DNA from: Salipiger profundus
GTDB taxonomy: Bacteria > Pseudomonadota > Alphaproteobacteria > Rhodobacterales > Rhodobacteraceae
NCBI RefSeq assembly: GCF_001969385.1
Contig: NZ_CP014799.1
Coordinates: 1 to 27,822 of the forward strand
DNA length: 27,822 nt
Direction: 5' to 3'
Below, one piece after another: positions 387 through 18,422 of this stretch (position 1 is its first letter; the number at the start of each line of letters is the position of its first letter). The translations under genes and the position numbers were made by a program. The notes below the pieces were generated by a model. That model searched no databases. It was not told the DNA's origin and saw only the letters and a list, made by a program, of their open reading frames with translations.

Positions 387-396
387 GGTTCACTGT

Positions 397-549
397 GACA
401 AAAACCTGCCAAAACTGCAAAGGTTTTGCCGGGGGTTTTTGTCCCAGCTAAGCAGTTGATCCTGGGTAGGGCAGGGCGTTTGGACAAAAACGACCGTTTT
501 TGACGCAACAGTTTTGGCATGGGGTTTGTGGCCGCAGTGCGGGACGAAA
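397..549 (+). repeat. Resolvase-site-like repeat R1, upstream of the broken resolvase gene
   Basis: R1 fills the gap between the resolvase start (386) and the acetyltransferase stop (571). It holds nested symmetries. GACAAAAACC at 397-406 pairs with GGTTTTTGTC at 434-443. A 22-bp palindrome at 483-504 has arms GACAAAAACG and CGTTTTTGAC around AC. A third block at 510-533 (GTTTTGGCA, GGGGTTTGTGG) precedes GCGGGACGAAAC. The middle and right blocks recur in R2-R4. Three subsites of paired half-sites upstream of a resolvase gene is the usual res layout. The role is inferred. Confidence 0.7.
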
Positions 550-570
550 CTGTTGTTCGCGGCTTCTAGT

Positions 571-1059
571 TTAGCGCGTTGCCAGCATCGGCAGTATGCG
601 ACCCCATTGCGTTTCTTTTGGCTGCCCCGACGGTTCAAATCCTAGCTTCCTGTAAACTGCAATCGCTCGTTCATTGTCCGGGTGAGGGTCGGTCGCGATC
701 ACCGGCGCACCGCCGTCAAAGAGAATGTTCATTCTCGCGCTAATGAACGCCGTCCCATGCCCAACTCCGATCATCTTGGGATCGCCGATGTATTGATCGA
801 TCCCTCGCGCACCCTTTGGAAGATGTGCAAAGTGATGCTCTTCCCACCCGTGGACGGAGTAATCCTGCATGAAGGCAAATGGACGCCCATCAACCAAGAC
901 GATCCAACGCGACACGCGAGGATCGCTTATTTCTTCCTCATCATACGGTTCGTCTGAATCCCACCATTCGCGGACATGTGACTGGGCCTGCCACTCTAAC
1001 AGCATGGGCAGATCGCCCACCGTCACTTTGCGGAAATCGTATTTTCTGGCGGCTATCAT
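571..1059 (-). CDS. GNAT acetyltransferase, AAC(6')-like (putative aminoglycoside N-acetyltransferase)
   Basis: This 162-aa protein is full length for the Acetyltransf_8 / AAC(6')-I group. The acetyl-CoA-binding motif is visible as GDPKMIGVGHGTAFI (about residues 92-106). It is followed by ATDPHPDNERAIAVYRKLGF (about 122-141), the conserved family pattern near the C-terminus. Such enzymes acetylate the 6'-amino group of aminoglycosides using acetyl-CoA. Relatives of unknown substrate also exist, so the substrate is inferred. The ATG at 1057-1059 has only a weak ribosome-binding site. The gene stands alone between repeats R1 and R2, its stop codon about 21 bp from R1, like a cassette. Its base composition is lower in GC than the block starting at 2224. 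Confidence 0.8.
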   Translation of the reverse strand: MIAARKYDFRKVTVGDLPMLLEWQAQSHVREWWDSDEPYDEEEISDPRVSRWIVLVDGRPFAFMQDYSVHGWEEHHFAHLPKGARGIDQYIGDPKMIGVGHGTAFISARMNILFDGGAPVIATDPHPDNERAIAVYRKLGFEPSGQPKETQWGRILPMLATR

Positions 1060-1092
1060 TTTTACACTCTAGCACATCGCTTCACGGTCGGC

Positions 1093-1221
1093 GTGGGCTC
1101 GTTCGAGCCCTTCTCTGCACAGCAGGAAGTGCCAAAACTCAGGCGTTTTTGTCACCGGCGGAAACGACCGTTTTTGGCCCACAGGTTCTGTCAGGGGGGG
1201 TTGTCCGCTTGGCGGACGGAG
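1093..1221 (+). repeat. Resolvase-site-like repeat R2
   Basis: R2 is a direct copy of the family: TGGGCTCG…, GCCAAAACTCAGGCG at about 1131-1145, TGTCACCGGCGGAAACGACC, CGTTTTTGG, then AGGTTCTGTCAGG and TTGTCCG. It is nearly identical to R4 over about 44 bp (two differences). It starts about 33 bp before the acetyltransferase start codon and ends about 21 bp from the stop of the 199-aa gene. Confidence 0.75.
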
Positions 1222-1242
1222 CTGTCATTGGATTAGCTTCAG

Positions 1243-1842
1243 TCAGCGTCCGCTTGCGAGATATTTTGCCACAGGATCGTCGGTCCAGACTTGCACCTCG
1301 ATATATTTTTCGAACTTTCGTTTGTGGTAGCGGTCATACGTCTCATCCACATCGCCGTCAGGCAAACCGTGTTCCGCCACGACGTCCGCGAGTTCATCCA
1401 TGAAAAAGACGCGTTCATGATAAGGTTCGAGGGGGTCGGGCGGTAAGCCGTAGTCAGGGCCGAGCCGCATTGATACGAAGCTGTCAGGATAGGTGAAACT
1501 TACAGCCTTCTTGGGCAATGATCGCCAATCGAGCGTCACGGTTTCAGGGTCTGGATATAGCCCAGAAAACCAAGCGCATTCCCCTAGAACGAAGTAGTGA
1601 GGGGACTGTCTTTCTGGCTCGCCTCCGCGTGCTTCGAAAAGCCCGCGGAGCTTGGTTTCGGTCCTGCGTCGAAAATCCATGTATCGCTTGCCAAATATGC
1701 GCTTGTAGCCGGGGTTATCTGCCCTTCGCTGTTTCAACCCTTCGATGACTTCGCTCAGTTCATTCGGCTCTAAATCGCTCAAGTTCTGGAACGGGCGGTC
1801 GGTCTGAGAATGGTAGTGCGTGATGAAGTCAGGCAGATTCAT
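1243..1842 (-). CDS. Hypothetical protein, 199 aa, single-gene cassette
   Basis: I do not recognise the family. The protein is soluble, with no signal peptide or membrane segment. It starts MNLPDFITHYHSQTD and has a basic stretch (KRIFGKRYMDFRRRTE, about residues 47-62), a W/Y/P-rich centre and a charged C-terminal third (DVDETYDRYHKRKFEKYIEV). The ATG at 1840-1842 is chosen because it is the first start outside repeat R3; a weak GGAA motif lies about 10 bp upstream. The gene is bounded by R2 and R3, and its stop lies about 21 bp from R2, the same spacing as the other cassette genes. No function is proposed. Confidence 0.7.
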   Translation of the reverse strand: MNLPDFITHYHSQTDRPFQNLSDLEPNELSEVIEGLKQRRADNPGYKRIFGKRYMDFRRRTETKLRGLFEARGGEPERQSPHYFVLGECAWFSGLYPDPETVTLDWRSLPKKAVSFTYPDSFVSMRLGPDYGLPPDPLEPYHERVFFMDELADVVAEHGLPDGDVDETYDRYHKRKFEKYIEVQVWTDDPVAKYLASGR

Positions 1843-1917
1843 GAGCGATCATTTCCAGGGTTCTTGAGGCTTCCTTAGCAGACGTTCGAAAGATTCGCAG
1901 CATCGCATCGGTCTCTC

Positions 1918-2060
1918 TGGGCTCCTTCCGGACCTTCGCCGCAGCGGCAGGATGTGCCAGAACCCAACCGTTTGTGTCACCGGCGGAAAGGACCGTTTTT
2001 GACATGCCGTTTCTGACAGGGGGTTTGTGTCCGGTGTGCGGGACGGAGCGAACGTTCGCT
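1918..2060 (+). repeat. Resolvase-site-like repeat R3
   Basis: R3 carries TGGGCTCC…, GATGTGCCAGAAC, then a 39-bp stretch (1966-2004) identical to 7723-7761 in R5. That stretch includes TGTCACCGGCGGAAAGGACC and CGTTTTTGACA. A third block (GTTTCTGACAGGGGGTTTGT) and GTGCGGGACGGAG follow. A perfect 14-bp palindrome, AGCGAACGTTCGCT, closes it at 2047-2060. Most of the 380 bp between the genes at 1842 and 2224 is this repeat. The rest holds only an 8-bp inverted repeat, CCATAGGC (2097-2104) with GCCTATGG (2123-2130). Confidence 0.75.
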
Positions 2061-2223
2061 GCGCTATTCACGAGCGTCCGTTTCTCATGGCCATAACCAT
2101 AGGCTACATGTCGCGAGGTCGCGCCTATGGGCTGCGTTCCGCGCAGGGTGGGTCAGGATCGACCCGCGTGTCGACCCTTGCGGGCGGCTGCGCTAGGTTT
2201 AGTGCGGCTATCGGAGACCGCCC

Positions 2224-3222
2224 ATGCGCCTTCGCCTCGCCGCAATGTTCGTCGTTCTCGCAGAGCCGGTGTCCGCGCAGGACATGGCGCTCGACGCCTC
2301 GACCCTGCGCGCCGCGCTCGACTCCTTCGATGTGCCGGGCATCGCGGTGGCCATGCTTGCGGATTGCGCGCCCATGGCGACCGTTGAGGCCGGTCTTGCG
2401 GATGTCGCCGCGGGCGATCCGGTGACGCGCGACACCGCGTTCGAGGCCGCCTCGCTCTCAAAGCCGGTCTTTGCGCATATCGTGCTGCAACTCGCGGATG
2501 AGGGCGTCATCGATCTGGACCGCCCCATTGCCGAGATCATGCCCTATCCGCGCATCACCGACGCGCAGGCCTATGCCCGGATCACCCCGCGCATGGTGCT
2601 GACCCATCGGACGGGCTTGCCGAACTGGGCCGAAGCGGACGGCAGCTTCCGCTCGACCGCGCCCATCGCCTTCGACACGCCGCCCGGCACGGCCTACACC
2701 TATTCCGGCGAGGGGTTCGAACTCCTGCGCACGCTGGTCGAGCGGGAGACGGGCCAGAGCCTCGCGGCCCTGTTCGAGGCACGCCTGGGGATCTTGATGC
2801 CACACTCCTCGTTCGCGGGGCTGCCCGAAGGCGCCGCGCCCTCGCGCGGCTACGTCTCGGCCCGCGATCCCGGTGAGGGCCGTGCGCTCAGTTACGGCGG
2901 CGCGGCGGGCGGCTTGGTGACGACCGCATCCGATTACGCCGCCTTCCTCGGCTATGTCTGCCGCGAGGAGGGGCTCTCGGCCGCCATGCAGGCCGACATG
3001 CTGCGCCCCCAGTCACCCGTGCCACCCGGCCTCTGGTCTGGACCGGCCTCCTGGGGCCTCGGGTGGGCGGTGGTACAGATGGGCCCCGAGACCATCGTCG
3101 CCCATGACGGCAACAACGGCGCCTACCGCGCTCTGGCGGGGTTCCTCCCCGCCACGGGGCAGGGTTTCGTCTTCCTCAGCAACGGCCGCAACGGCGGCGA
3201 CCTCATCGAGCAGATGGGATGA
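2224..3222 (+). CDS. Beta-lactamase-family serine hydrolase (class C / PF00144 fold), exported
   Basis: This 332-aa protein has a short signal peptide (MRLRLAAMFVVLAEPVSA, probable cleavage before QD). The catalytic SxxK is in ASLSKPVFA at about residues 76-84. A tyrosine motif, YTYSGEG, is near residue 160, and a HDGNN motif near residue 296 stands in for KTG. That set marks the serine beta-lactamase/D-aminopeptidase/esterase superfamily. A true beta-lactamase is not proven, because the YxN motif reads Y-S-G. The start has GGAG about 8 bp upstream. The stop overlaps the ATG of the S41 pseudogene (ATGA at 3219-3222), showing a former operon. GC is very high, unlike the neighbouring cassette genes, so this block probably came from a high-GC chromosome. 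Confidence 0.8.
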   Translation: MRLRLAAMFVVLAEPVSAQDMALDASTLRAALDSFDVPGIAVAMLADCAPMATVEAGLADVAAGDPVTRDTAFEAASLSKPVFAHIVLQLADEGVIDLDRPIAEIMPYPRITDAQAYARITPRMVLTHRTGLPNWAEADGSFRSTAPIAFDTPPGTAYTYSGEGFELLRTLVERETGQSLAALFEARLGILMPHSSFAGLPEGAAPSRGYVSARDPGEGRALSYGGAAGGLVTTASDYAAFLGYVCREEGLSAAMQADMLRPQSPVPPGLWSGPASWGLGWAVVQMGPETIVAHDGNNGAYRALAGFLPATGQGFVFLSNGRNGGDLIEQMG

Positions 3223-3580
3223 GGACCGCCGCCGCGGCCCTCTCGGTCGCCATCGCGCTCGGCACGCCGGAGCGGGCGGAGGAACCGTTCGATCCGTAGG
3301 CCGGCTTCGACGCTTTCTGGACCATCTTCGACGAACGCTACGCTCTGTTCGAGGTGAAACACGTCGATTGGGACGCCGTGTGGGCGGTCTACGCCCCGCG
3401 CGTCGATCCCGTGACGACGCATGCGGAACTCTTCACGCTCTTCGAGAGTGTGACCGATCTCCTGAACGACATCCACGTCAAGGTCGAATACACTCGCACG
3501 GGCCGTTTCGCCCGCTCTGGCGGACGCGGGCTGGGGATCGCCCCCTTCGATGCGGGCACTTTCTCGACCGACCATGCCGC
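3219..3580 (+). pseudogene. S41-type peptidase (C-terminal processing / tricorn-like) remnant
   Basis: The frame starts with an ATG overlapping the hydrolase stop and a signal-like N-terminus (MRTAAAALSVAIALG). It hits an in-frame TAG at 3297-3299, then continues in the same frame with GFDAFWTIFDERYALFEVK and LFTLFESVTDLLNDIHVKV. This is the helical N-terminal region that precedes the protease core in tricorn-like S41 peptidases. The gene ends near 3580, where unrelated sequence is joined, so the catalytic domain is gone. One nonsense codon plus a 3' truncation make it inactive. Confidence 0.65.
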
Positions 3581-3585
3581 GCTCG

Positions 3586-3800
3586 TGCCGGACTGCACGA
3601 CGTGGCGCACCGGTGCTCCGTCGACGTAGCCTGGGCAGCCAACGCTGCCAGGGTTCAGTATCACCCGTCCATCCGGCAGAACGATGCGGCGCGGCAGGTG
3701 CGTGTGCCCGCAGAGCACGAGGCGCGCGTCGATCCGGTCCGCCTCGCCCGCAGGACGATCTTCCCCTCCGGCGAGACCGCCTCCCCCCCGACGCGGCTAT
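3586..3800 (-). pseudogene. Metallophosphoesterase C-terminal remnant
   Basis: The minus strand reads DARLVLCGHTHLPRR, then VILNPGSVGCPGY and PVRHVVQSG. GHTHLP and NPGSVG are the C-terminal metal-binding and structural motifs of YfcE/MJ0936-type metallophosphoesterases. The N-terminal metal-binding motifs are absent. At its 3' end the frame runs into the antisense of the S41 remnant. The sequence upstream to about 3800 stays in frame but has no start I would trust. It is a fragment joined by recombination, not a working gene. Confidence 0.6.
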
Positions 3801-4025
3801 GATCTGCGCGCTGTATGGATGTCTGGCTAGGAGAACGCGGTTCTTGGCGGTGTTACACGAAACACGGTCTTCGGGCCGGTCACGGGAAGCGATAAGCGTC
3901 GCGGGCAGACGCTAAGGCAGTTTCCACGCGGTCTGTCGCGCATCTGCACACGAGGTGATTGATCAATCCAGACCGAAGGGCTTAATAGATGACTCTACGT
4001 CATCGTTCGTATCGGAGCACTGACA
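3801..4025. other. No recognisable gene
   Basis: Short unassigned sequence between the metallophosphoesterase remnant and the acidic-protein gene. It probably contains the promoter for the 4026-5203 pair, but no convincing -35/-10 pair was identified. Confidence 0.4.
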
Positions 4026-4460
4026 ATGTTGGACTTGTATTTCGACGGCACGCCGGGTGGCGGCTGGACTTGGGGCGACATCGAGGAGTTCGGGGCGACC
4101 GATCCGGCGTCCCTCCCCCAGTGGCAGCAGGATGCCATCGAGGACCTCTTCAACGAGATGCAGTACGATCCCCGGATCGCCGCGCTTCTCGACGCGTATG
4201 AGAACATTCCGAACCCGTCCCAACCGATCACCAACGCGGTGCTGAACCAGACCGTGCAGGTCGCGCAGGAGAACGCGGCGAACGGTCAGTACGACGGCTG
4301 GGTGGACCAGTTCGAGTGGGCGTCCGGGCATGCTGATGCCTGGTACGACGCCAATGGGTACGACGACCCCTATCTCGATTGGGGCTATTACGACAGCTAC
4401 GACTACTTCTGGGCAGACGATTCGCCGAGCTGGTGGGCCGACGAATACGGGCTCTATTGA
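4026..4460 (+). CDS. Acidic, aromatic-rich hypothetical protein coupled to a nucleotidyltransferase
   Basis: This 144-aa protein is strongly acidic and unusually rich in W, Y and D. The last third reads in steps such as DDPYLDWGYYDSYDYFW and SPSWWADEYGLY. No signal peptide or membrane segment is seen, and I do not recognise the family. Its TGA stop (4458-4460) overlaps the TTG start of the next gene as TTGA, so the two are probably translated together. A DNA-mimic or antitoxin-like partner would fit such an acidic protein next to a nucleotidyltransferase, but that is speculation. The long frame on the opposite strand (3963-4550) is a GC-driven shadow. Confidence 0.65.
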   Translation: MLDLYFDGTPGGGWTWGDIEEFGATDPASLPQWQQDAIEDLFNEMQYDPRIAALLDAYENIPNPSQPITNAVLNQTVQVAQENAANGQYDGWVDQFEWASGHADAWYDANGYDDPYLDWGYYDSYDYFWADDSPSWWADEYGLY

Positions 4461-5203
4461 CGCAAGTGCCGCTTCCGCACCACCTGCCGGTGGAGATCGG
4501 TGACGCGATTGCGTCCACCGTGTCCGAACTCTATCCCGGCGCGCCGGCAACGCTGCTCTACGGCTCGACTCTCTCTGGCGAGCGCAGCGCGCGGAGCGAC
4601 ATCGACCTCCTCGTGATTCTTGCGGGCGGAGACCGGATGGTTGAACGGCGCGTGCGCCGGGGCGGGCTCACCTTTCAGATCACCGCAATCCCGCGTCACG
4701 CGCTGCCGCATCTGCCGGGAGCGAGCCGCAAGGCAGGTCGGCAGGTTGGCCTTGTAGGGCTCGTGCATGGTCAGGTAGTACTAGGCGCGCTGCCGGAACT
4801 GGAAGACCTGCGGCGCCTCGCGGTAGATGCGTTCACCGAAGTGAACGCCGCCATGTCCCGTCAGTGGGAGCGCAATCTCCGCAAGGCGGTGGAGATGGCC
4901 GAGTCCGCCCTGGACAGGCCCGGCCCCGGCGGCACCGCATTGGCGCTGCGCGCGGTGGCGATGCTGATGGAGGCCGAGCTTCAGTCCCGCTCCCGGGACT
5001 ATTTCAGCACCCGCAGCCGCCTGCGCGCTCTGGCCGAAGCGGAGCCCGATATCGTCGCCGACTACGCCCGGATCGCAGCGTCCGTCGCGGCAGGAGAGAT
5101 GGAGCCCCTCGCCGGTGTTGCGCGGCGGCTCCTCAAAACGCTGCCACCCCCGCCCGATGACGAGATCGTCCGCAATGCACCGGTGGCCGTGTTTATGCGC
5201 TAG
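4457..5203 (+). CDS. Nucleotidyltransferase-domain protein (pol beta superfamily) with helical C-terminal domain
   Basis: This 248-aa protein carries the nucleotidyltransferase signature YGSTLSGERSARSDIDLLV: G36-S37, then D48 and D50 as the metal-binding pair. A third acidic residue is not obvious. From about residue 120 the protein is mainly helical and Ala/Arg/Glu-rich, as in KNT-like or HEPN-type C-terminal domains. The TTG at 4457 is chosen because it overlaps the stop of the upstream gene; GTG at 4466 is the alternative. An open frame extends upstream to 4379 but lies inside the acidic-protein gene. Possible roles are an aminoglycoside nucleotidyltransferase, or an MNT-type toxin or antitoxin. 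The sequence does not decide between them. Confidence 0.7.
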   Translation: MTQVPLPHHLPVEIGDAIASTVSELYPGAPATLLYGSTLSGERSARSDIDLLVILAGGDRMVERRVRRGGLTFQITAIPRHALPHLPGASRKAGRQVGLVGLVHGQVVLGALPELEDLRRLAVDAFTEVNAAMSRQWERNLRKAVEMAESALDRPGPGGTALALRAVAMLMEAELQSRSRDYFSTRSRLRALAEAEPDIVADYARIAASVAAGEMEPLAGVARRLLKTLPPPPDDEIVRNAPVAVFMR

Positions 5204-5225
5204 TAGGCGCGGGGCGGCCGCCGGC

Positions 5226-5530
5226 TTACTCCTGCCACCACGTAGCGATTTCCGGAAACGCGATCAGGAGCGCGAGGGCAAGTATCTTGATGCAGATGAA
5301 GGGGACCAGCGCCTTTAAGATATCGGCGAGGGAGATCTCGGGCGGGGCGACGGACTTGAGGTAGAACGCCGCCGGGCCGAAGGGGATGACCGGAAGCTCA
5401 TATCCATGTTCATGGCGAAGAGCACCCGAAGCACACGGAACCTTAGACAAAGGATTTCACGATGAGCACGACGATCGGAATGGTCGGGAGGGCGATGCCG
5501 ACCCAGTCGAGGAAGAGTCCCGGCGGGATT
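5226..5530 (-). pseudogene. TRAP transporter large permease (DctM) C-terminal remnant, frameshifted
   Basis: Two minus-strand frames together recover the end of a DctM-type permease. One reads GLFLDWVGIALPTIPIVVL up to a stop near 5447. After one or more frameshifts, LFAMNMDMSF and then PFGPAAFYLKSVAPPEISLA and LALALLIAFPEIATWWQ follow, to a stop at 5226. These are conserved last-helix sequences of TRAP large subunits. Everything upstream of about 5530 is missing. It is a decayed fragment carried in the mosaic block between R3 and R4. Confidence 0.65.
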
Positions 5531-5791
5531 AGGGTCAGTGGACTTCGGTCTCACTCTAATACTTAGAGATCGCGTCACGGCAGGACGTCGGTGACACGGA
5601 TCAGGAGCAGACGTTCCGACAAGTGCGCCCCAACTGAACCGCAAGGTGGAACAGGTCAGCCGTCGCAATAGCGTCCGTGCAAACTTGCGGAAAGCTCCCA
5701 TGGGCGTGTCTAAATCCATACGGAACACGATGCCGCATCCGCAATACGGCCCGTCGAAGCCGACTTTCATGCGCTTTGCAGCATCCGGTAC
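5531..5791. other. Unassigned sequence between the DctM remnant and R4
   Basis: Open frames exist on both strands here (for example 5601-5855, minus strand), but none has a recognised motif, a good ribosome-binding site or a sensible boundary. The longest one runs through the start of repeat R4. I see no supportable gene. Confidence 0.4.
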
Positions 5792-5906
5792 AGTGGGCTC
5801 GTTCCAGACCTTCTCCGCACCGCAGGATGTGCCAAAACTCAGCCGTTTCTGTCACCGGCGGAAACGACCGTTTTCCGCGTGCAGGTTTCGGCTAGGGGTT
5901 TATGGC
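5792..5906 (+). repeat. Resolvase-site-like repeat R4
   Basis: R4 begins GTGGGCTCGTTCC and continues with GCAGGATGTGCCAAAACTCA, CCGTTTCTGTCACC and GGCGGAAACGACCGTTTTCC. The last is close to a perfect inverted repeat around AC. AGGTTTCGG and AGGGGTTTATGG follow. It matches R2 closely and has the same orientation as all other copies. It ends about 30 bp from the stop codon of the DUF262 gene. Confidence 0.75.
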
Positions 5907-5936
5907 ACATCCAAGAGATGCTCGGCGTGTCCCGAC

Positions 5937-7574
5937 CTATAAAGACGATATTCCGGTCCGTTCTTGCAGCGCTGCGATCATCTTTCTTCGTCGCGCCTTA
6001 ACGAATGTTGGGAAGCGTTTCTTCAAGTCTTCGCGGTCGATTAGCGCCGCCTCTAGCGTCGCATCATCTACATCGGCCAAGTAGGTCTTTGGCTTGGCGT
6101 CCGTTTTGCTCCGATTCACATGCTGAGGCAGAAACCAAAGATTCCCGATGTCGTCGATCAGCGGGTCGTCGCCGTGCCTTGCGCGTGGAAAGATGTGATC
6201 CGTCTCAGCGACATTACGCGCATAGAGAGTTTTTCCATCTGTTTTGCCCTGCACCAAGGCCAGCGCCAGAGGGACGTGGTTCCCGAAAAGTTGGTTGTCC
6301 GCTCCCTCAATACGGGTTTTTGCTTTCACATAACGAGCTACGCGATCGTAAGGAAACTGCGCGGGAAGTCCTCCGAGCGCCTCGCGAATGAGACCGCCGG
6401 GACGACTGTCTGAATGCTTTGTCAGCACCCCAGAGAACGCGATCAGATAGATTGCGCGGCGCAGGTCCGCCCTCTCGGAGTTTGCAACGATGGGCTTCTT
6501 TTTTTCCGCGAGATAGTGAACTACCGGCACCAAACTGTTGAGACCGTTGAGTAACTTCACTGACCCCAACCGGCACTCGTCCTGAGCGAAGTCGATGGCT
6601 GAACGAATTGCGGCCGTCGTCTTATCATATGCCGCTTTTACCTTCTCAACGTTCTTCTCTTTGCGTAGCAGCCCAATGTCGAGGCGGGTGCCAAGGCCCG
6701 CCACAGAGAAGATGCAGCGGATCACAAAATCCGAATCAATCTTGATGCTGCTCTTGGAGTTTACGTCCTCGATGAACTTCGGCAGCGCGTCGGTCGCGTC
6801 TGGCCAGTGAAGGCGCAGCATTGATAGGATTAGGTCTGACCGCGTCAGGTTTATACCCTGCGTGTTGATCCGCATGAAGATTTCGAGAATATCGAAGACG
6901 GTTTTCCGCGAAGCATCGTCCTTCGTCAGACCCTCATCAATAACTTGCTCCTGCAGAAGGCCACGCCGATCAGTCATTATGGCGAGCGGTAGTCTAAGAT
7001 TCTCAATCAAACGCTCTTCGTCTTCATCCCCAAGGTTGAATGCCTGATCCAATTCTTTACGCAGCGCTTTACCAGGAGCAGACTGTCCAGAGAAATCCGT
7101 TAGCGCGACATAGTGCGCAGGCACTGCCTCGTCGTCGTTGTCCCCGCGCGCCTGCGCGTTCCGCGCTTTTGCTTCATTTGAGGTCATGAATCGGAACGAG
7201 AACTTTTCCTCACTCGCATCGTCCGAACTGCGCCCGCTAAGGACGTCGAAGTGAAGTTTACGCCCATCAAGAGAACCGCGTAGGGCGATATAGAGCGATG
7301 TTAAGCGTTGCTGCCCGTCCAAAACCAACTGCACGGTCTCCCCGTCGTTAACCCTGTAGTCCGCCCGTGCTCCACGGCGATGCTTGGCGTCGAAGGTCCG
7401 GTACTGGATCGCCTCCGTCGTGTCCCACAGTAATACGACCCCAATAGGGTAGCCACGGAACAAGGAGTCGAAGAGCTTCTCGATCCTGTCCGCGTTCCAC
7501 ACGAAGTCCCTTTGGATCGCGGGCAACACGATGCGCCCCTTCTCGATGCCATCAAGCAGCGTGGATACGGACAT
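5937..7574 (-). CDS. DUF262/HNH protein (GmrSD-like), putative phage-defence nuclease
   Basis: This is a full-length 545-aa protein. The N-terminal DUF262 (ParB/Srx-like) domain shows LPAIQRDFVWNADRIEKLFD and GYPIGVVLLW (about residues 18-50), then the nucleotide-handling signature LVLDGQQRLTSLY near residues 83-95. The C-terminus carries an HNH/DUF1524-type nuclease motif: ETDHIFPRAR near residue 460, with N-x-W-F-L and HVNRSKTDAK following. The same two domains occur in type IV enzymes such as GmrSD (BrxU), which cut modified phage DNA using NTP. ATG at 7572-7574 has AGAGGT upstream. The gene is alone between R4 and R5, so it is a one-gene defence cassette. The substrate is unknown. Confidence 0.82.
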   Translation of the reverse strand: MSVSTLLDGIEKGRIVLPAIQRDFVWNADRIEKLFDSLFRGYPIGVVLLWDTTEAIQYRTFDAKHRRGARADYRVNDGETVQLVLDGQQRLTSLYIALRGSLDGRKLHFDVLSGRSSDDASEEKFSFRFMTSNEAKARNAQARGDNDDEAVPAHYVALTDFSGQSAPGKALRKELDQAFNLGDEDEERLIENLRLPLAIMTDRRGLLQEQVIDEGLTKDDASRKTVFDILEIFMRINTQGINLTRSDLILSMLRLHWPDATDALPKFIEDVNSKSSIKIDSDFVIRCIFSVAGLGTRLDIGLLRKEKNVEKVKAAYDKTTAAIRSAIDFAQDECRLGSVKLLNGLNSLVPVVHYLAEKKKPIVANSERADLRRAIYLIAFSGVLTKHSDSRPGGLIREALGGLPAQFPYDRVARYVKAKTRIEGADNQLFGNHVPLALALVQGKTDGKTLYARNVAETDHIFPRARHGDDPLIDDIGNLWFLPQHVNRSKTDAKPKTYLADVDDATLEAALIDREDLKKRFPTFVKARRRKMIAALQERTGISSL

Positions 7575-7718
7575 GAAGATACCTCTAAGCTTCGATACGA
7601 TGGGAAAACGAAGGCTACTTATGCGAACCTACGTTGGGAACATGATCTGTAACGCGAGATGACCGCCCCTGCACGACAAACTTGAGAGCACCGCTCCGGG
7701 ACAAGCCTGGCAGACAGA

Positions 7719-7761
7719 ACTCAACCGTTTGTGTCACCGGCGGAAAGGACCGTTTTTGACA
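7719..7761 (+). repeat. Resolvase-site-like repeat R5 (short)
   Basis: R5 contains a 39-bp stretch (7723-7761) identical to 1966-2004 in R3, ending CGTTTTTGACA. The right-hand block present in R1-R4 is missing, and the left arm is not clearly conserved, so this copy is truncated or has recombined. It ends 26 bp from the stop of the OLD-family gene. Confidence 0.75.
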
Positions 7762-7787
7762 ATAGCAGTCCCGTTGCTGGAAAGTCT

Positions 7788-9668
7788 TCAGGCAGCAAAT
7801 TCCGCTATCATGCGTGCCACTTCACCGAACCAAGTTCGAATCTCGTTTCCAGGATCAGTTTGGTTCAACCGGTCGGCGGTCATCCGGGCAACTACACCAT
7901 TGTTTAGGGACGACTTCGCGTTGCGCATCTTCTTCCTGCGCTTGTCCTCTTCCAGACCCGCCCATGCTGCTCCGCCGCTCGCCAAATGAACAGCCTCCGC
8001 TACCAGTTGGGGCACATCGTCAAAGTCGTTGAACGGCGCCCCAAAAGCTACTGCCGCTCCATTCGCGGCGTAAAACTCGTTGATTGCTTCATGATGCAAG
8101 TAATTTTCAAGCTCACGCTTGTTCGTTACGACAGCGAGACATCCCGGTCGGCTGTTCACCGCCGCCATGTGGTCGTTATATTTGGGGTTGGCCGGTGGTT
8201 GGTTGTCCCGATCACATATGTGAAGCTCAGGGCGATTGAGGGCCTTTAACCGAGAACTCCAGACTGCCAAGTTGCTTCCGCCGAGAGGGATAAAGATGAG
8301 TTCTCCATCAACCTCGAGCTGTTCTAAGTCAGGAATATCCTCTCCCGCTGCACGAAGAATACGCGCCATTCCCGTTAGGAACGAGATGTCATGCGGGCCT
8401 TCTACGCCGACGAACACCTTGACGTTGTGATCCGGTAACACTCCAAGGGACTTGGCAATCTCTGCCGAAATCGCCGGGCTACCTTCATCGACGCTTCTTA
8501 ACCCCGCATCATCACGTTGGATGAAGCGGACGTCACCTTCAGGCAGGTGCCGTGCCAGCATTGGAGTGTGTGTGGAGATGATCACTTGTCTTCCGTCTGC
8601 AGCTGCCAACTCTCTAAGAGCTTTAAGCAGCAAACGTTGATTTCTTGGGTGTTGGCTCGTTTCAGGTTCTTCAATCGCGTAGATGATGGAAGTGGAGTTC
8701 CGTTCCGCAGCGTTCTTTTCGGCCTGTGCGCGGAAAAAGTTGAGTAGGACTAATCGCTTTACCCCACTCCCGCGCTTATTTAGCGGTATTCCCTCGTCAC
8801 CAGTGATGCTAGTGGAAAAAAGCGAGTCCCATTTTTTGGTCATAACAACAGGGTCGAGTGTCTCGGCGACAGACGCATCCATCTCCCGCAGCTTGTCCAC
8901 GGTCGCCGCCGCAATTTTTTTGACCTCGGCTTCAACGTAGTCCTTAACCTCCTGCAATTTCGGTTCCACCGCCTTGATGGCTTCGCGAATAGCCGCCTTT
9001 AGGGGGTCTTGGGCTTCTGCGTCTTGGTCGGTGCTTGCCCGATCAGACTTGAATAGTGCGAATGTCGGCAGAAACTGCTGTAGTGCCGCCCATGCCTGCT
9101 TGCCTCCCTCCGCCTCGAGAGAGACCGGGACCTCAGCAAGTTGCAGGTCATCGCTTGAGGCCCAAATAGCTGATCTCACCGGCGCGTTTGCGCGCTTATC
9201 CACTTCCTTAAGGTCAACTCGCAACTCCTCGGCCCTCTTGGCGAGGTCAGCCTTCTTAAGAGCTAGAAGGTCGTTGTAGCCCTTGGCTGTAGGGTGTCGC
9301 GCTATGGCCTCAATAGCGGAGACCTTGGGGGTGGCGAGCGCTCCATTGTAGGTCTTCCGGACAACGAGCGTGCCGTTTTCGCTCAACAAATACTCGGAAG
9401 CGAGCGTGGTGGGAAATTCGGCGTCCACGACAATGGATTCAGGCAACCGATCAAACTCACAACTGATACGCATAAGCTTTGGATCGCCGTTCTTACTTGC
9501 ATCATCCTTGTCCGGATTGGCCGTCTCAAAGAAGATCGCGAGCGCTTCCATCAAGGTCGACTTGCCAACGTCGTTGCGTCCAACCAATGCTGTAAGATCA
9601 TCAAAGCGGACTGAAATAGGTGCGACGTAGCACCGGAAGTTCTCAACAGTCAGGCCAACAAGTCGCAA
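7788..9668 (-). CDS. OLD-family protein: ABC/SMC-type ATPase plus TOPRIM nuclease domain
   Basis: This 626-aa protein begins with an SMC/RecF-like ATPase. It shows VENFRCYVAP, the Walker A motif VGRNDVGKSTLMEALA (about residues 28-43) and a Walker B region with IIYAIEEPETSQHPRNQ, followed by HTPMLARHLP. The C-terminal part reads VKVFVGVEGPHDISFLTG and later LHICDRDNQ and TNKRELENYL, the acidic motifs of an OLD-type TOPRIM nuclease. Proteins of this kind act in defence (GajA, PtuA-like and P2 Old relatives). No UvrD-like GajB partner is adjacent, so this appears to be a solitary OLD protein. The start is TTG (9666-9668), supported by GGGAGGGG seven bases upstream. The gene follows R5 directly. 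No further repeat was found on its far side. Confidence 0.85.
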   Translation of the reverse strand: MRLVGLTVENFRCYVAPISVRFDDLTALVGRNDVGKSTLMEALAIFFETANPDKDDASKNGDPKLMRISCEFDRLPESIVVDAEFPTTLASEYLLSENGTLVVRKTYNGALATPKVSAIEAIARHPTAKGYNDLLALKKADLAKRAEELRVDLKEVDKRANAPVRSAIWASSDDLQLAEVPVSLEAEGGKQAWAALQQFLPTFALFKSDRASTDQDAEAQDPLKAAIREAIKAVEPKLQEVKDYVEAEVKKIAAATVDKLREMDASVAETLDPVVMTKKWDSLFSTSITGDEGIPLNKRGSGVKRLVLLNFFRAQAEKNAAERNSTSIIYAIEEPETSQHPRNQRLLLKALRELAAADGRQVIISTHTPMLARHLPEGDVRFIQRDDAGLRSVDEGSPAISAEIAKSLGVLPDHNVKVFVGVEGPHDISFLTGMARILRAAGEDIPDLEQLEVDGELIFIPLGGSNLAVWSSRLKALNRPELHICDRDNQPPANPKYNDHMAAVNSRPGCLAVVTNKRELENYLHHEAINEFYAANGAAVAFGAPFNDFDDVPQLVAEAVHLASGGAAWAGLEEDKRRKKMRNAKSSLNNGVVARMTADRLNQTDPGNEIRTWFGEVARMIAEFAA

Positions 9669-9995
9669 TAATTACCCCTCCCAAATGCACCTCTAAGCTG
9701 AGACAGCCGGATCGGTTGGTCAATGAAAATAACGTGTTCACTCTTGTCGTCATCTACCTATGTATCCCCGCCTAAGAATTCCTCAGATAGACAGTCTTTG
9801 GTTCTAGTGGACTGTGCCCCGCTTCTGGCTCGGGCATTCCATGCCCGTCCGCGCGAAGCGCCGGGCCTGTCGGCGGGTGGCCTTCAGGTTGCCCACCGAC
9901 AGGTCACCTTGAAACCGCCCCGCCCAGGATCACACCACAACAAAAAAGGCCCCCGCCTGCTGACGGGGGCCTCGATTGTTCGGCGGCGCGGGCTG
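9669..9995. other. Intergenic region between the accessory array and ardC
   Basis: The 327 bp contain no supportable gene. The array-proximal part is ordinary sequence and probably holds the promoter for the TTG-started OLD gene. The ardC-proximal part has a 12-bp inverted repeat with one mismatch (9866-9877 with 9892-9903, CCTGTCGGCGGG) and a strong terminator at 9942-9971. No sixth array repeat is visible, so the array boundary is not marked by one. Confidence 0.5.
9942..9971 (-). terminator. Rho-independent terminator of ardC
   Basis: On the minus strand an 8-bp GC-only stem (GGCCCCCG with CGGGGGCC, 8-nt loop) is followed directly by six T residues. It lies about 25 bp beyond the ardC stop codon. 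Confidence 0.88.
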
Positions 9996-10880
9996 CTACT
10001 CGGCGGCCATCCGGTCAGCCTGGGCGGTGCAGGCCATGATGTAATCCACGGCCTTCTGCGCCTCGGACGCAGCGCGGAAAATCGCACGGCTGTCTTCCTT
10101 CATCGCCTCAAGCCATCCTTCGACATAGGCCGCGCTCTGATCGAATTCAGGCTCCACTCCGATCTGCGCGCAAAGCATGCAGTTTCCGATTTCAGCAACC
10201 AGCTCCTCGAACGCGTAGGCCTTGCGGTCATTGAACCGGCCCAAACGGTCCAGCCGCTTTGTCGCCCCTGTCCAGTGGGTCAGCTCGTGCGCCAAGGTGC
10301 CGTAATATCCTGCCGCTCGATGGAACGTGCCAATCGGTGGCATGTGGATGCGGTCAGTTTTGATGTTGTAGTACGCGCGCGGCTCCTCGGTCACGTCGAT
10401 CTGCGCGCCGGTCGCGGCAAAGAACGCCTCCAGCGCGGGGTCGGCCACGGTGCCAAGATCGCGGGGCGGATCGGGCAGGATGTAGAACTCGGCGGGCAAG
10501 CCCTCGATCTGATCAGCGTTGAACACGCGGTAGGCCTTGGCATAGGGGATCTGGCGTTCCTCGCCGTTCTCGTCCTCGCGCTCGACGGTGCCATATTTCA
10601 CGACGGTGGCGGATTTCTCGCCCTTCCGGACATGGCCCCCAAGCTGCTTGGCCTGATTGAACGTCATCCAGCGGGCTGACCTGTAATCCTTAGCCATCGC
10701 TGTCGCCCAAAGCATCAGGATGTTGATGCCCCGATAAGCCTCGCCGTTGAACCGTTCCGGCAGGCTGACCCCGGCCCCGCCACCGGTCCACGGCTTGCGC
10801 CAGGGCGGCGTTCCCGCCTCGATCTGCGCGACGATCTGATTGGTGACATGGTTGTAGACGTCAAATTTCTCTGCGGTCAT
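9996..10880 (-). CDS. ardC: ArdC-like antirestriction protein (ssDNA-binding domain plus zincin metallopeptidase domain)
   Basis: This 294-aa protein has both ArdC/DUF1738 domains. The N-terminal ssDNA-binding domain starts MTAEKFDVYNHVTNQIVAQI and contains PWRKPW and GINILMLW. The C-terminal domain has the zincin motif AHELTHW (HExxH, about residues 197-203) and a downstream EELVAEIGNCML glutamate. Family members protect incoming single-stranded plasmid DNA from host restriction during conjugation, which fits the mobilisation genes next to it. The ATG at 10878-10880 follows a strong GAAGGGGGGTC ribosome-binding site; the upstream extension of the frame is not coding. A terminator follows the stop. 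Confidence 0.9.
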   Translation of the reverse strand: MTAEKFDVYNHVTNQIVAQIEAGTPPWRKPWTGGGAGVSLPERFNGEAYRGINILMLWATAMAKDYRSARWMTFNQAKQLGGHVRKGEKSATVVKYGTVEREDENGEERQIPYAKAYRVFNADQIEGLPAEFYILPDPPRDLGTVADPALEAFFAATGAQIDVTEEPRAYYNIKTDRIHMPPIGTFHRAAGYYGTLAHELTHWTGATKRLDRLGRFNDRKAYAFEELVAEIGNCMLCAQIGVEPEFDQSAAYVEGWLEAMKEDSRAIFRAASEAQKAVDYIMACTAQADRMAAE

Positions 10881-11284
10881 TTGTGACCCCCCTTCAAGTG
10901 ACGCGGGCCGGGTCTCTTCCCCTTTCCGCCGATGGGCGGGCCTTCCTTCTCTGTTGTCTGGAATGCCCATGCATTCCGGACGGCAGAGCAGGTAAGGGCA
11001 AAGCCCGTCCTGCGGCCCGGCGGGGCCGTGACAACCGGGTGGAGGGCGTGAATTTGGGAGGGAACCGCGCGCCTGCGCGTGGGAGGAACCGGAATTCTCG
11101 ACCGGAACCGACGCCGCAGGCGGCGCTTGCCGGTTTTCTCGGACCTGCCGGGATGGCAGGCGGATCAACAGGATTGGAAACTGTCAGGGTTGGGGTGAGC
11201 GGGCGTTAGCCCGTCGATCCCCTGCCCTGTCTATCGCTCAAAGCGAGACCGGCACACTGCCGGGATCACAGTCGTTGCATCACA
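10881..11284. other. GC-rich intergenic region with short hairpins upstream of ardC
   Basis: No gene is supported in these 404 bp. Several short inverted repeats occur: CGCCGC/GCGGCG at 11112-11125, CCTGCC/GGCAGG at 11144-11160 and CGGGC/GCCCG near 11200-11213. It must carry the ardC promoter and probably the end of the upstream transcript. Antirestriction genes on some plasmids are expressed from single-stranded hairpin promoters on entry, which would suit this structure, but no such promoter was identified here. Confidence 0.4.
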
Positions 11285-12100
11285 TCAATACGTGCGCTGG
11301 TCCGTGATCTCCTGATAGGTCACAATTCCAGCCTCAGCCAAAAAATCTTTGAGGCCCTGATACCTAGCTTTGTATTTAGGGGCCTTGATCGTCTTCGGAC
11401 TAAACTGAAAACCCAACTCGGGGACCGGCTCGCCATCATGTTGCCGCCAAAACATTGGTGACAAGAGACCAAGCAAGGTGTTGGCAGTTGCCAACAAGCC
11501 TGTTGTCTCCCGTGTGTGAGCGTTGATTGCCAAACGTAGCGACCCCAAAGCAACGTCAACAACACTCGGGAAGTGAGATTGCCCTATCGCGGAATAGTGG
11601 AAGCCCGTGATGTTAGTGAGACGCATCTCAGGACTGTATGGCAGGCCGGTGATGCCCACGGTGAACTTGTCTCTTAGATGGGCATCGATGGCATTTCCCT
11701 CATCATTGAAGCGGTCGATCAGCACCAATCCCGCCCCGCCAAGCCGGTTCAGAATGCAATCAAAATGGTAGCAGACTGTGTTGATCCCGTTACGGCGTGC
11801 TGTATCTGGGTCTACGGCTATGTCGTGCAGGATCGTATAGACAACTAGGCGGGTTCCAAAACGGGCTGCCGTCTCAAGCACCGCTTGCTTCAACGCAATG
11901 AACTGTTCATGCGTGAACCCTTCTGGACCAGGATTGAATTTAAGCCGGTAGTCACGCGGAACGCCGTGTCTCGTTCGCAATTCATCAATTGCTGCAGAGA
12001 ATTCTTTCGCGGTCGAACCGTCAATAATCAGTCCACCGTAAATCAGAAAGTCACCTGCCCGTTCTTCAAGGTTCGTCTCGTCGCAATAGAAAAGATGCAA
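11285..12100 (-). CDS. DUF3800-family protein (putative RNase H-like nuclease)
   Basis: The 271-aa protein begins L-H-L-F-Y-C-D-E-T-N, the first acidic motif of DUF3800 (YxDEt/s), and has the second aspartate strand GLVLIDRFND near residue 135. Later motifs (SVVDVALGSLRLAIN) match the helix that carries further acidic residues in this RNase H-like family. I place the start at TTG (12098-12100), because the core GGAGG lies at the right distance before it. The longer ATG start at 12128 would place that ribosome-binding site inside the gene and add ten residues outside the domain. DUF3800 proteins are common on plasmids and near defence genes; their role is unsettled. It sits in the same direction as the relaxase gene. 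Confidence 0.75.
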   Translation of the reverse strand: MHLFYCDETNLEERAGDFLIYGGLIIDGSTAKEFSAAIDELRTRHGVPRDYRLKFNPGPEGFTHEQFIALKQAVLETAARFGTRLVVYTILHDIAVDPDTARRNGINTVCYHFDCILNRLGGAGLVLIDRFNDEGNAIDAHLRDKFTVGITGLPYSPEMRLTNITGFHYSAIGQSHFPSVVDVALGSLRLAINAHTRETTGLLATANTLLGLLSPMFWRQHDGEPVPELGFQFSPKTIKAPKYKARYQGLKDFLAEAGIVTYQEITDQRTY

Positions 12101-12138
12101 AATGTTTCCTCCGAAGCGCCTGCTCCGCAATCGTAGTT

Positions 12139-12429
12139 TTACCGTAACTGATGGAACACTGGTGGCTGATCCGGCTTTCCATCGAACAGGATCACGCGCC
12201 CGTCGCTATCGTCTGGATCGTTGACCAAGACAAACGGCACCTCTGCCCCGTCCTTCTCATAGATGCAGCGGTATTTCATCTTGCCGTCGAGCGGATCGCG
12301 CACCTGGTCGTAGCGGTAGCTGTGCGGGATGCCCTTCTCGATCCAACCTTCAACACCTGCGGGCGTCACAAGAGATAACGGCTTTCCGTCCAGTAAGATC
12401 GTCTTTCCCACGTTGAATACTTCATACAT
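12139..12429 (-). CDS. Small hypothetical protein, 96 aa
   Basis: I do not recognise this protein. It starts MYEVFNVGKTILLDGKPLSL, is hydrophilic, and ends with the beta-rich stretch DGRVILFDGKPDQPPVFHQ. The phrase LLDGKP near the start and LFDGKP near the end suggest an internal duplication of a small beta unit. The ATG has a very good ribosome-binding site (GAGGAGACT). It begins 35 bp after the relaxase stop and ends 38 bp before the DUF3800 start, so the three are likely co-transcribed. An accessory mobilisation or entry function is possible from position only. Confidence 0.65.
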   Translation of the reverse strand: MYEVFNVGKTILLDGKPLSLVTPAGVEGWIEKGIPHSYRYDQVRDPLDGKMKYRCIYEKDGAEVPFVLVNDPDDSDGRVILFDGKPDQPPVFHQLR

Positions 12430-12464
12430 TCGATCAGTCTCCTCTGTCGTTTCAGCGGGTTGCG

Positions 12465-13754
12465 TTACAGGCTGTGACCTTCGCCACGATCCATGTCCCG
12501 CGTGTTTTCGTTCTCGTCGTCACCGCGCTCTTGTGCGCGTTCGTCCTCGATCTCCAGCTTTTCGCGCGGCTTGTTCAGCACGTCCTTCAGGCGCTCGTTG
12601 ACGGACAGCTTACGCGCCTCGCGCCCCGTGTCGCTCATGTTATGCTCGCCGTGACCATCCAGCTTGTGAACCGCTTCCTGACCATCGCGCCCGGCGTCTT
12701 TCTCCATGATCTCTTTCAGCCGCTCCCGCGCATAATTGCGGCCTTCCGGTTTCGGCGTGTCGTCACGGTCTTCTGACCGGCCCACGACGCGCGCCAACCG
12801 CTCCCGGAAGTCATCCGGGTTTCGGTCGCGGTCGCGATCTTTCGCGGTTGCGGCCCTGAGTGCTGCCAGACCGGCAGAGACGCGGCCCTGCCCGGCCTCG
12901 CGCTCGATGCCGTAGGTCTCGCGCGCCAATTCCAGCCGCGCGCGCATTTCGCGAAACGCGGCGCGTGCCTGGCGGGCGGCATGGACCACGGCACCGCGCT
13001 CGGTGACGGGTTTGTATTCCCGTCCCTGGCGCTCGGCCATCGCCTTGGCCCGGCGTTCCATGGAATTGGCGGCTGGCCCCAGCTTCAGCTCGGGGTCGCG
13101 GTCCAGCTCCTCCGCCGTCAGCTCGTCACCCCGTTCCAGCGCCGCCTCGCGCTGCGCCTCAAGCGACCGGTGATCGACGCGTTCCACCTCCCCTGCCCGC
13201 TCCAGAGCGCGGTTCTGCAACTCGGCCCAGAGGCCTCGCATCTGCTCGATCTCGACGCCACCGGTTTTCGCGGAATCGAGTACGCGGGTCTTGGTCGTGA
13301 AGCCATCCGCGTCCAGCTTGCGGGTGGAGGTCAGCACATGGGCGTGGTGATTGCGCTGATCGCCTTCCCGGTGCGGCGCATGGATCGCCACATCGACAGC
13401 CACGCCATAGCGGCTGACCAGCTCCTGGGCGAAGTCGCGGGTGATCTGCGACCGGTCCTCAGCACTGATCTCGGACGGCAGGGCCAGCTCCCACTCGCGG
13501 GCAGTGACGGAGTTGCGGCGGGTCTCGCTGGCCTCGACCTCATTCCAGAGGCGGGACCGATCCGTAGCCCAGTCCGGGGCGTCCTTCGGGGTCAGGATGA
13601 AGGTCTCTTCGATGCCCTGCTTGCGGGTGTAGTCGTGGACGCGGCCTTCGCGCTGGCACTCGATGCGCTCCCCGACACGGTAGGCTGCTGCCGCCGTGGC
13701 GGAACGCCCGGCGCTGCGTTTGATCGTCTTTACAGAGAGGTGGTAGCTGGCCAT
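12465..13754 (-). CDS. mobA: MobA/MobL (MOBQ) relaxase
   Basis: This 429-aa relaxase starts MASYHLSVKTIKRSAGRSAT, the usual N-terminus of MobA/MobL proteins, including the YRVGERIE strand. The metal-binding histidine motif reads HAPHREGDQRNHHAHVLTST (about residues 124-143). The enzyme nicks oriT on one strand and stays covalently attached to the 5' end. After about residue 210 the protein is a highly charged, probably coiled-coil tail with no primase or helicase motif. The chosen ATG (13752-13754) follows GAGAGAGGAGGG; upstream frame extension lacks support. The presumed oriT lies about 700 bp upstream at 14401-14450. Confidence 0.9.
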   Translation of the reverse strand: MASYHLSVKTIKRSAGRSATAAAAYRVGERIECQREGRVHDYTRKQGIEETFILTPKDAPDWATDRSRLWNEVEASETRRNSVTAREWELALPSEISAEDRSQITRDFAQELVSRYGVAVDVAIHAPHREGDQRNHHAHVLTSTRKLDADGFTTKTRVLDSAKTGGVEIEQMRGLWAELQNRALERAGEVERVDHRSLEAQREAALERGDELTAEELDRDPELKLGPAANSMERRAKAMAERQGREYKPVTERGAVVHAARQARAAFREMRARLELARETYGIEREAGQGRVSAGLAALRAATAKDRDRDRNPDDFRERLARVVGRSEDRDDTPKPEGRNYARERLKEIMEKDAGRDGQEAVHKLDGHGEHNMSDTGREARKLSVNERLKDVLNKPREKLEIEDERAQERGDDENENTRDMDRGEGHSL

Positions 13755-14076
13755 CCGCCCTCCTCTCTCAAAGGCGATAGTTGCCGCCGTGGCAGAGCGC
13801 CCAGCTCTTGGCTCGTGACAAGAGCTGAGGTGTTGGTGCAGAGTGGGGATGAAGCCCAACCTCTTCCGGTTCCCTTGGGAAAGGGCTTCGTCCTCCCTGT
13901 TGGGCGTAAGACGGTGGTTTTGGAGATCAGTGATCCAAGACCGCCGCAGCTTTGCGCAACCGTCTTTTCCCCGGAGGCCCGCGCCCCAAATCGCAGTGCG
14001 CGTTCGCACCGCTGGGGCTGGAGTGGAAAAGACAGCCCGGCTGAAGCGAGCCTCTGGCTCTCTGAGGCACGGGCTT

Positions 14077-14450: not shown

Positions 14451-14515
14451 TTTACAGGTCTACGGGTAAGCGCTACCGATGGTTGTTGCAAGCCTAACCT
14501 TTACACCTGCCCCCT

Positions 14516-16482: not shown

Positions 16483-16499
16483 CCCGAAAGCAATGCGCC

Positions 16500-18311: not shown

Positions 18312-18320
18312 GATTAAAAA

Positions 18321-18410: not shown

Positions 18411-18422
18411 CAGGATCGAGCA

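Follow-up and report, generated by a model that had tools for sequence, protein, structure and literature searches.

Unrelated genes that are separated by copies of one repeat raise the question of how they were brought together and by which enzyme. The window analysed here, the whole stretch of positions 1-27,822 of contig NZ_CP014799.1 of Salipiger profundus, is a pTB3-type plasmid in which five related repeats (R1-R5) separate unrelated passenger genes beside a serine resolvase gene. The obtained results point to a gene-cassette capture system run by this small serine resolvase and analogous to the integron, a reading that we consider probable from comparisons of sequence. Our confidence in it was slightly lowered because only one whole unit was seen in two contexts.

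The centre of each site was defined as the A of its central AC, and offsets (+/-) are given relative to the centre. A previous reading of the letters alone (the sequence-only reading) had reported five repeats in the same orientation, and all five were present on the + strand where it had placed them (Table 1). The repeats are real and far beyond chance: by the weight matrix for the C type of site described below, which was trained on 72 sites including R2-R5, the next-best place in the window scored -20.2, and the maximum in 103,659 shuffled bases was -24.7. A BLAST search of the organism's own genome (5.42 Mb, nine contigs) revealed no copy besides these five, all on this contig. The 39 bases said to be shared by R3 and R5 came to about 40 identical bases when counted by eye, and R1 was indeed located directly upstream of the serine resolvase gene, with 107 bp between its centre at 493-494 and the gene start at 386. 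What did not hold was the treatment of the five repeats as equivalents, as R1 is a distinct, attI-like partner whose left arm is unlike those of R2-R5.

Two types of site can therefore be told apart. R (R1) is the res-type site of the adjacent resolvase, and C (R2-R5) comprises the sites that end cassette-like units. Both types share the centre AAACG-AC-CGTTT; small serine recombinases act on dyads of this kind, with 2 bp at the centre. The left arm of R1, which is kept in the sibling plasmids, presented four half-sites, TGACAAAAAC, TGCCAAAAC, GTTTTGCC and GTTTTTGTC, at about -98 to -50, followed after a spacer by GGACAAAAACG-AC-CGTTTTTG; the accessory half-sites thus lie some 50-100 bp from the centre. 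The C sites follow the layout TGCCAAAACTCA..CGTTTNTGTCACCGGCGGAAACG-AC-CGTTTTTGGC, often with a longer outer arm GGGCTC.TTCCGGACCTTC.CCGCACCGCAGGATG, and carry an adjacent inverted pair of resolvase-type half-sites, TGCCAAAAC...GTTTTTGTCA. R5 is reduced to a short left arm and the right half-site. The consensus was built from 83 C and 47 R sites after the removal of sites with identical arms. AC occupied the centre in 82 of the 83 C sites and 44 of the 47 R sites, and the conserved arms extended about 73 bp to the left and 50 bp to the right. An accessory GGTTCTGGCAGGGGGTTTATGTCC-like element was found right of the centre in 33 C sites (about 40%) and 27 R sites, at +14 in 51 of these 60; among 2,000 random 70-mers it occurred 18 times. 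Duplicate loci were removed before counting (for example L084=L162, L069=L152 and L061=L159; L035, L038, L079 and L157, which are like L033; and L071, which is like L051), as were L015-L018, L020, L021, L023 and L025 in favour of longer stretches. The comparison of homology ends by BLAST, described further on, removed only part of the duplicate loci.

The enzyme next to R1 belongs to the small serine resolvases of about 180-190 residues (PF00239), and the window copy is split in two pieces, which were searched separately and not joined. Similarity of the C-terminal piece to the pTB3 resolvase extends to about 23965. Intact relatives exist: the pTB3 relative has 179 residues, the sibling resolvases are 82-96% identical to it, and its nearest solved relatives are a DNA invertase (4m6f) and the gamma-delta resolvase. 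The half-sites of R1 left of site I have the appearance of a multipartite site directly upstream of the resolvase gene. The same spacing was seen elsewhere. A resolvase match lay within 1 kb of 21 of 48 non-redundant R sites, and the distance from centre to match start was 107-110 bp in 20 of these and 97 bp in L122. Among 83 C sites, three had a resolvase within that distance, two of them near an R site, and the third, in L068, resembles by eye the fusion of a C arm with an R arm in inverted orientation. Among the matches listed for plasmid records with the R left arm, a resolvase stood within 200 bp in at least 26 of 40 and 2.9-4.6 kb away in two, as judged by eye. In two plasmids, L130 (4179-6894) and L132 (6658-8308), a pair of genes for a cytosine methyltransferase and an ATP-binding protein lies between the resolvase gene and the R site.

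A cassette is expected to recur, bounded by its sites, in other surroundings, and the sequence-only reading had asked whether this is so. The AAC(6')-like unit of the window (493-1168) was found in G170, a genome of another genus (L018/L148), over 676 bp with one mismatch. On its left stands the R1 left arm in the window and a C arm in G170; on its right, the R2 right arm in the window and CGTTACTGCC... in G170. The BLAST homology ended within 5 bp of both centres. Alongside this whole unit, several one-sided cases showed units bounded by the conserved site in other combinations. L072 and L077 (Pontibrevibacter and Yoonia) share 1,341 bp that end in a C site, 99.7% identical and then different, the homology ending at +16 in a gapped and at +6 in an ungapped alignment; in L035 and L059, the 277 bp before a C site are 83% identical and end at +7. 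The 73-bp left arm of R3 is identical in L046:962 (Paracoccus isoporae), where the right side differs. Given that near-identical arms occur on different units, only matches running past the arm were counted as the same cassette.

At the R sites, too, cargo changes close to the centre. A divergence profile was obtained from all 21 resolvase-adjacent R sites, whose 210 pairs gave 205 pairwise left-arm alignments. Mean pairwise identity was 0.80 at -100 to -61, 0.66 at -60 to -17 and 0.67 at -16 to -1, rose to 0.95 at the centre and 0.88 at +1 to +8, and then fell to 0.43 at +9 to +12, 0.30 at +13 to +24, 0.28 at +25 to +50 and 0.25 at +51 to +100. The alignments ended at +4 to +18 in 156 cases, earlier in the spacer in 32, at +19 to +60 in 16 and beyond in one. 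Among closely related pairs, L129/L131 show 98.9% identity over 4,016 bp that stops at +9, with no BLAST match between the 4 kb that follow in each; L095/L127 (96.4% over 2,150 bp) and L012/L124 (91.9% over 4,007 bp) end at +6 and +7. In the other pairs with 88% identity or more, homology stops between +6 and +13; the exceptions are L012/window (+37) and L006/L073 (+52).

Turnover of cargo at R was also seen when the window was compared with 14 whole sibling plasmids and pTB3 itself (n=15). The matches start at 106 and end at 499-507 in ten of the 15, at 511, 516 and 530 in three, and at 386 in two plasmids whose R site lies further off. They resume at 9829-9846 in the eight plasmids with the ArdC region and later in the others, and window positions 530-9829 had no match in any of the 15 in that comparison. 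The cargo of the siblings includes a DUF262 gene, SMR efflux and TetR genes, a helicase, metal transporters and mercury resistance. At the right cargo boundary (9832-9846 and siblings), a short palindrome was noted by eye whose sequence varies with its pairing kept (GGGCAT..ATGCCC, GGGCAATTTGCCC, CCCTTAGGG).

In our view these comparisons establish that DNA has been exchanged at the sites, and they support placing the exchange point at the dyad centre or a few bases from it. This agrees with the proposal that exchange occurs at the GAC/GTC palindrome centre, as homology ends there or a few bases away. A picture in which the repeats serve only as unchanging promoter or terminator sequence, with no genes exchanged at them, is contradicted.

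The arrangement of sites was analysed in the 48 non-redundant R sites and their loci. Thirty had a C site in the same locus and 18 had none in the stretch covered. The nearest C site lay downstream in the same orientation in 26 of the 30, upstream in the same orientation in three and in the opposite orientation in one. Adjacent C sites shared their orientation in 18 of 20 pairs, in line with the same-oriented array claimed from the window, and two pairs were opposed. The 44 units ranged from 424 bp to 11.6 kb with a median of 1.4 kb. Upstream sequence of 4 kb or more was available for 42 C sites, and 28 of them had a second site within 4 kb. The sequence-only reading had further pointed to four passenger genes of one orientation with stop codons near a repeat. 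This is true of the window, where four genes on the - strand end near a repeat's right arm, at 571, 1243, 5937 and 7788, and it is not a general feature: the longest open reading frame (ORF) of each unit, taken as a proxy for its gene, was on the + strand in 22 units and on the - strand in 22, so shared orientation is not a generally valid argument.

We propose the following mechanism. The pTB3-type resolvase would bind R, the res site located about 107 bp upstream of the resolvase gene, and its normal role would be the resolution of plasmid multimers. Cassettes, each one gene or a short operon, would carry the second, related site C. A cassette would be inserted beside R, or removed, when R and C, or two C sites, recombine at AC; same-oriented R-C-C-C arrays would build up in this way. 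For the orphan R sites of chromosomes and of a phage contig, the enzyme may be supplied in trans. What we infer is the role of the resolvase as the enzyme and its resolution of multimers, together with circular intermediates of the cassettes and their preferential insertion at R. As the resolvase gene of the window is broken, its array may be frozen unless served in trans.

Several observations weigh against this reading. A Tn3-family transposon splits the resolvase gene of the window, leaving the pieces of the gene at opposite ends of the contig, and 27 of the 48 R sites lack a resolvase match within 1 kb. The AAC(6')-like unit is the only whole unit seen site-bounded in two contexts. Since AC and most of the C core were given in the main scan pattern, the conservation of both in C is partly selected. 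Near-identical 73-bp left arms occur on different units, which exchange at AC alone does not explain. Seventeen of the 205 R alignments pass +18, reaching up to +86, mostly via a shared right arm; all involve L006, L012, L073, L122, L136, L149 or the window, and in most of these the right arm has stayed similar. Two families switch where the right arm ends (L006/L073 at +52; L033 versus L035 and L038 at +48). Four of the 30 R/C pairs had another order or orientation, 14 of the 42 C sites lacked a second site within 4 kb upstream, and the longest ORFs were evenly divided between the strands. Finally, 12 of the 14 sibling plasmids had no recognisable C site; in L136 the C site is inside the cargo, and L130 alone has one at the far end, degenerate and directly abutting a conserved hairpin, GGGCAT...ATGCCC. 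L127 has a truncated arm at the far end of its cargo, by eye. Either the far ends erode or much of the cargo arrives another way.

The scarcity of C sites among the siblings would be expected if a resolvase shuffled DNA without dedicated cassettes, R and C being descendants of the res sites of many elements and unrelated DNA being joined by chance res x res crossovers or by the resolution of cointegrates. Kholodii reportedly proposed in 2001 a shuffling role for resolvases generally. We consider this explanation doubtful. Resolvases that act on foreign res sites are known, as in CinH-RS2 (PMC9501444, in the part of that source available); however, the C sites form one sharply conserved family with an arm of its own, the median unit measures 1.4 kb, the arrays are same-oriented, and a resolvase accompanies hardly any of the 83 C sites. 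The last point also disfavours the earlier alternative that each repeat is the leftover of a separate res-bearing element.

It is unlikely that another recombinase, a chromosomal serine or tyrosine enzyme, moves the cassettes, with the plasmid resolvase only resolving multimers and its res site being struck because it resembles the cassette site. The C sites hold further R-type half-sites, share centre and polarity with R, and cargo turns over at the resolvase's own site. The many R sites without a resolvase nearby are in favour of such an enzyme, as is the left half of the C core, CACCGGCGGAAACG, which departs from the resolvase half-site TGACAAAAACG. The carrier genomes can be read both ways: among the 38 searched, which do not cover all carriers, a homologue of the pTB3 resolvase was found at E 1e-20 or better in 29, many at only 40-60% identity; nine had no match at that threshold, and many hold several other serine recombinases. 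Homologous recombination between the arms (about 73 bp left and 50 bp right), with the core merely their most conserved part, would suit left arms that are up to 100% identical between different units and the switches at +48 or +52, but it is very improbable and is contradicted as a general mechanism, as the left arms of the AAC(6')-like unit (R in the window, C in G170) share no evident similarity beyond CGAC and the R sites next to a resolvase have little in common to the right of about +12. Such recombination may nevertheless contribute.

The capture system run by the resolvase is the preferred reading, and the units and genes of the window are listed with it in Table 1.

Table 1. Sites, cassette-like units and genes of the window and their positions
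Feature	Position	Strand	Description
R1, attI-like / res-type site	396-549	+	Accessory half-sites ~396-445, spacer, site I centre AC 493-494, right arm 495-549
R2, C-type site	1093-1221	+	Centre AC 1167-1168; C-matrix score 87.0 bits
R3, C-type site	1918-2062	+	Centre AC 1992-1993; C-matrix score 83.1 bits
R4, C-type site	5793-5906	+	Centre AC 5867-5868; C-matrix score 83.3 bits
R5, short C-type site	7711-7761	+	Centre AC 7749-7750; C-matrix score 67.7 bits
Resolvase, N-terminal part	108-386 (start at 386)	-	PF00239 profile 1-102; 94.7% identical to the intact pTB3 resolvase, 94 residues
Resolvase, C-terminal part	24094-24219	-	PF00239 profile 103-144; 91.9% identical to pTB3 resolvase residues 93-178
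Cassette 1	495-1167	+	GNAT, AAC(6')-like gene 571-1059(-)
Cassette 2	1169-1992	+	199-residue protein of unknown family, gene 1243-1842(-)
Mosaic unit	1994-5867	+	Beta-lactamase-fold protein 2224-3222(+), ORFs 4026-4460(+) and 4379-5203(+), remaining DNA without recognised genes
Cassette 4	5869-7749	+	DUF262/GmrSD_N protein 5937-7574(-); PF03235 3.8e-30; PADLOC HEC-05-like 1.5e-66
Distal unit	7751-9829	+	OLD/AriA-like ATPase 7788-9668(-); PF13175 3.9e-67; AriA 2e-55
pTB3-type backbone	9830-24219		Parts in the seven rows below
ArdC-like zincin	9996-11168	-	Backbone
MobA/MobL relaxase	12465-14009	-	Backbone
Coupling protein	14812-16482	+	Backbone
RepA	17277-18311	+	Backbone
ParA	18423-19091	+	Backbone
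Methylase	19805-22762	+	Backbone, restriction-modification
PLD-type nuclease	22781-23896	+	Backbone
Transposon's own resolvase	24255-24842	-	Within the Tn3-family transposon
Tn3 transposase	from 25008 past the right end of the contig		PF01526 3.5e-125

The cargo of the window was compared with known protein families. The AAC(6')-like GNAT protein scored under the curated cut-off of every AAC model listed, the best giving 81 bits against a cut-off of 280, and the beta-lactamase-fold protein matched Pfam Beta-lactamase (PF00144, 1.2e-47) and stayed below the cut-off of all 25 NCBIfam models listed. With the limits applied, the 199-residue protein matched nothing in Pfam, PADLOC or NCBIfam. A homologue of its gene, 82% identical, was located on the G140 chromosome (L150:2019-2761) with sequence resembling the outer parts of both arms and without the core sites, and this copy may be a progenitor or a decayed copy. 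No transposase family matched any of the eight cargo ORFs scanned. By the C matrix, no C site was present at the far end of the distal unit or further on in the window. A plasmid database searched with the DUF262 and OLD units gave no match; the AAC(6')-like and 199-residue units, searched together, gave 102 plasmid records, the 25 listed all being gene-level matches (query 77-587) from Sinorhizobium meliloti.

Two features of the backbone were observed in addition. Beside the relaxase gene, 14077-14140 holds a perfect 24-bp inverted repeat with a 16-bp loop, possibly part of a transfer origin, and four direct repeats of about 24 bp with an iteron-like look stand before and overlap the start of repA (17178-17301). 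The transposon that splits the resolvase gene is bounded by ends of 38 bp (67-104 and 24222-24259) and flanked by AATAT on either side (one copy at 105-109), and 22 further transposase codons at 3-68 match the frame. If the contig is circular, it spans 24222-27822 plus 1-104, or 3,705 bp. On C5, another contig of the same genome, the transposon lies at 21512-25119 plus 1-97, with an identical 3,602-bp stretch and the same total. The idea that the contig was broken inside the transposon was rejected, since the transposase frame continues across the ends and the pieces sum to 3,705 bp on both the window contig (C4) and C5; by the same sums, both contigs are most likely complete circles. In size and layout the transposon is similar to Tn3434a and Tn6122 of Paracoccus, as far as the accessible part of the source describes them (PMC3281130).

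The distribution of the sites was then examined beyond the window. A pattern scan of a genome collection (84,980 species) gave 49 stretches, of which 48 held a site by a looser test; the match in L043, a Rivularia metagenome-assembled genome (MAG), failed this looser test and was set aside as a chance hit. By title, nearly all stretches are from Rhodobacterales (Roseovarius, Sulfitobacter, Paracoccus, Yoonia and others), with exceptions that include Martelella, a Rhodovibrionaceae MAG and a Verrucomicrobia MAG. Within the family of the window, the exact scan pattern was found in five of 394 genomes, its own included, and a chromosomal R arm in eight of the 120 searched, so this is not a high-copy repeat. 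R3 matched 53 PLSDB records. Counted by eye, 44 of these come from Pseudosulfitobacter plasmids of about 80 kb, each matching once; in Paracoccus sediminicola p1 there are five matching places, between which lie an arginase-family gene, TetR and MFS transporter genes and a long thiol/metal gene group. A viral search gave one contig, L082 (IMG/VR), with an R site and two C sites at 1602-2619 and two small ORFs; its sites adjoin phage Baseplate_J and gp25 genes. In L070, a Paracoccaceae MAG, a chromosomal R site and a C-ended unit (about 5275-6422) stand between rplY- and pth-like genes, named by eye. Eighteen passenger proteins were hand-picked from units elsewhere, and two further scanned proteins were phage genes. 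The 18 included two acetyltransferases, three MFS transporters, two histidine kinases, a LysR, an AHSA1 and a pyridoxamine-oxidase-like protein and an alpha/beta hydrolase with a LuxR domain; seven had no family above its curated cut-off.

Integrons resemble this system in several ways: the recombinase gene adjoins a primary site, most units in the row hold a single gene and have a conserved secondary site at their end, different genes can carry near-identical secondary sites, and orphan sites occur without a recombinase. They differ in the enzyme, as the gene at R1 encodes a small serine resolvase and not a tyrosine integrase IntI beside attI; here, moreover, the dyad centre has 2 bp, units reach 11.6 kb, and the 44 units show no integron-like common gene orientation (22 + and 22 -). 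The system works like an integron and is not a member of the integron family. Nor is the enzyme an SCC-type Ccr large recombinase (about 450-560 residues), given its 179 residues and a CcrB score of 68.3 bits against a cut-off of 900.

In the pdif (XerC/XerD) modules of Acinetobacter plasmids, genes between recombination sites likewise move between plasmids as modules, according to the accessible part of the source (PMC9501444). The sites described here are different: they are res-like, R stands beside a serine resolvase, their orientation is mostly direct, and the core AAACG-AC-CGTTT with its 2-bp centre and R-type half-sites is unlike the 11-6-11 layout of pdif, a comparison made without an explicit dif scan. 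Resolvase/res systems such as CinH-RS2 and those of Kholodii (2001) share the small serine resolvase, a multipartite res site upstream and recombination with foreign res sites; the accessible parts of these descriptions contain no dedicated cassette-end site or multi-cassette arrays, unlike what is seen here. The res-site hunters of the Tn5053 type also use plasmid res regions, as insertion targets (PMC7765201 and PMC11137137, from the parts available). Tn5053/Tn402 elements have transposition genes and terminal repeats inside the insert; here the boundaries fall at the res centre, and none of the eight cargo ORFs scanned matched a transposase family. The literature searched, mostly without subscription papers and with no preprints, contained no description of such a system, an absence that is not proof.

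Resolvases have mainly been seen as housekeeping enzymes that separate plasmid dimers and transposon cointegrates. We lean, by a little, towards regarding the present system as a third class of bacterial gene cassettes beside integrons and Xer/pdif modules, in which a resolvase and its attI-like res site on pTB3-type plasmids would collect C-site single-gene cassettes and feed orphan attI-like sites on chromosomes, other plasmids and phage across Rhodobacterales, moving defence-like, resistance-like, transport and regulatory genes. If it is true that one resolvase family collects cassettes, cassette shuffling arose independently with serine recombinases, and the C site would be a simple handle for listing the accessory genes of Rhodobacterales, some of them candidate defence genes or genes without a known function. 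Two questions also become testable: how a res site that favours deletion gains DNA, and where cassettes originate, for which the chromosomal copy of the cassette 2 gene in G140, lacking the core sites, is a possible cassette source.

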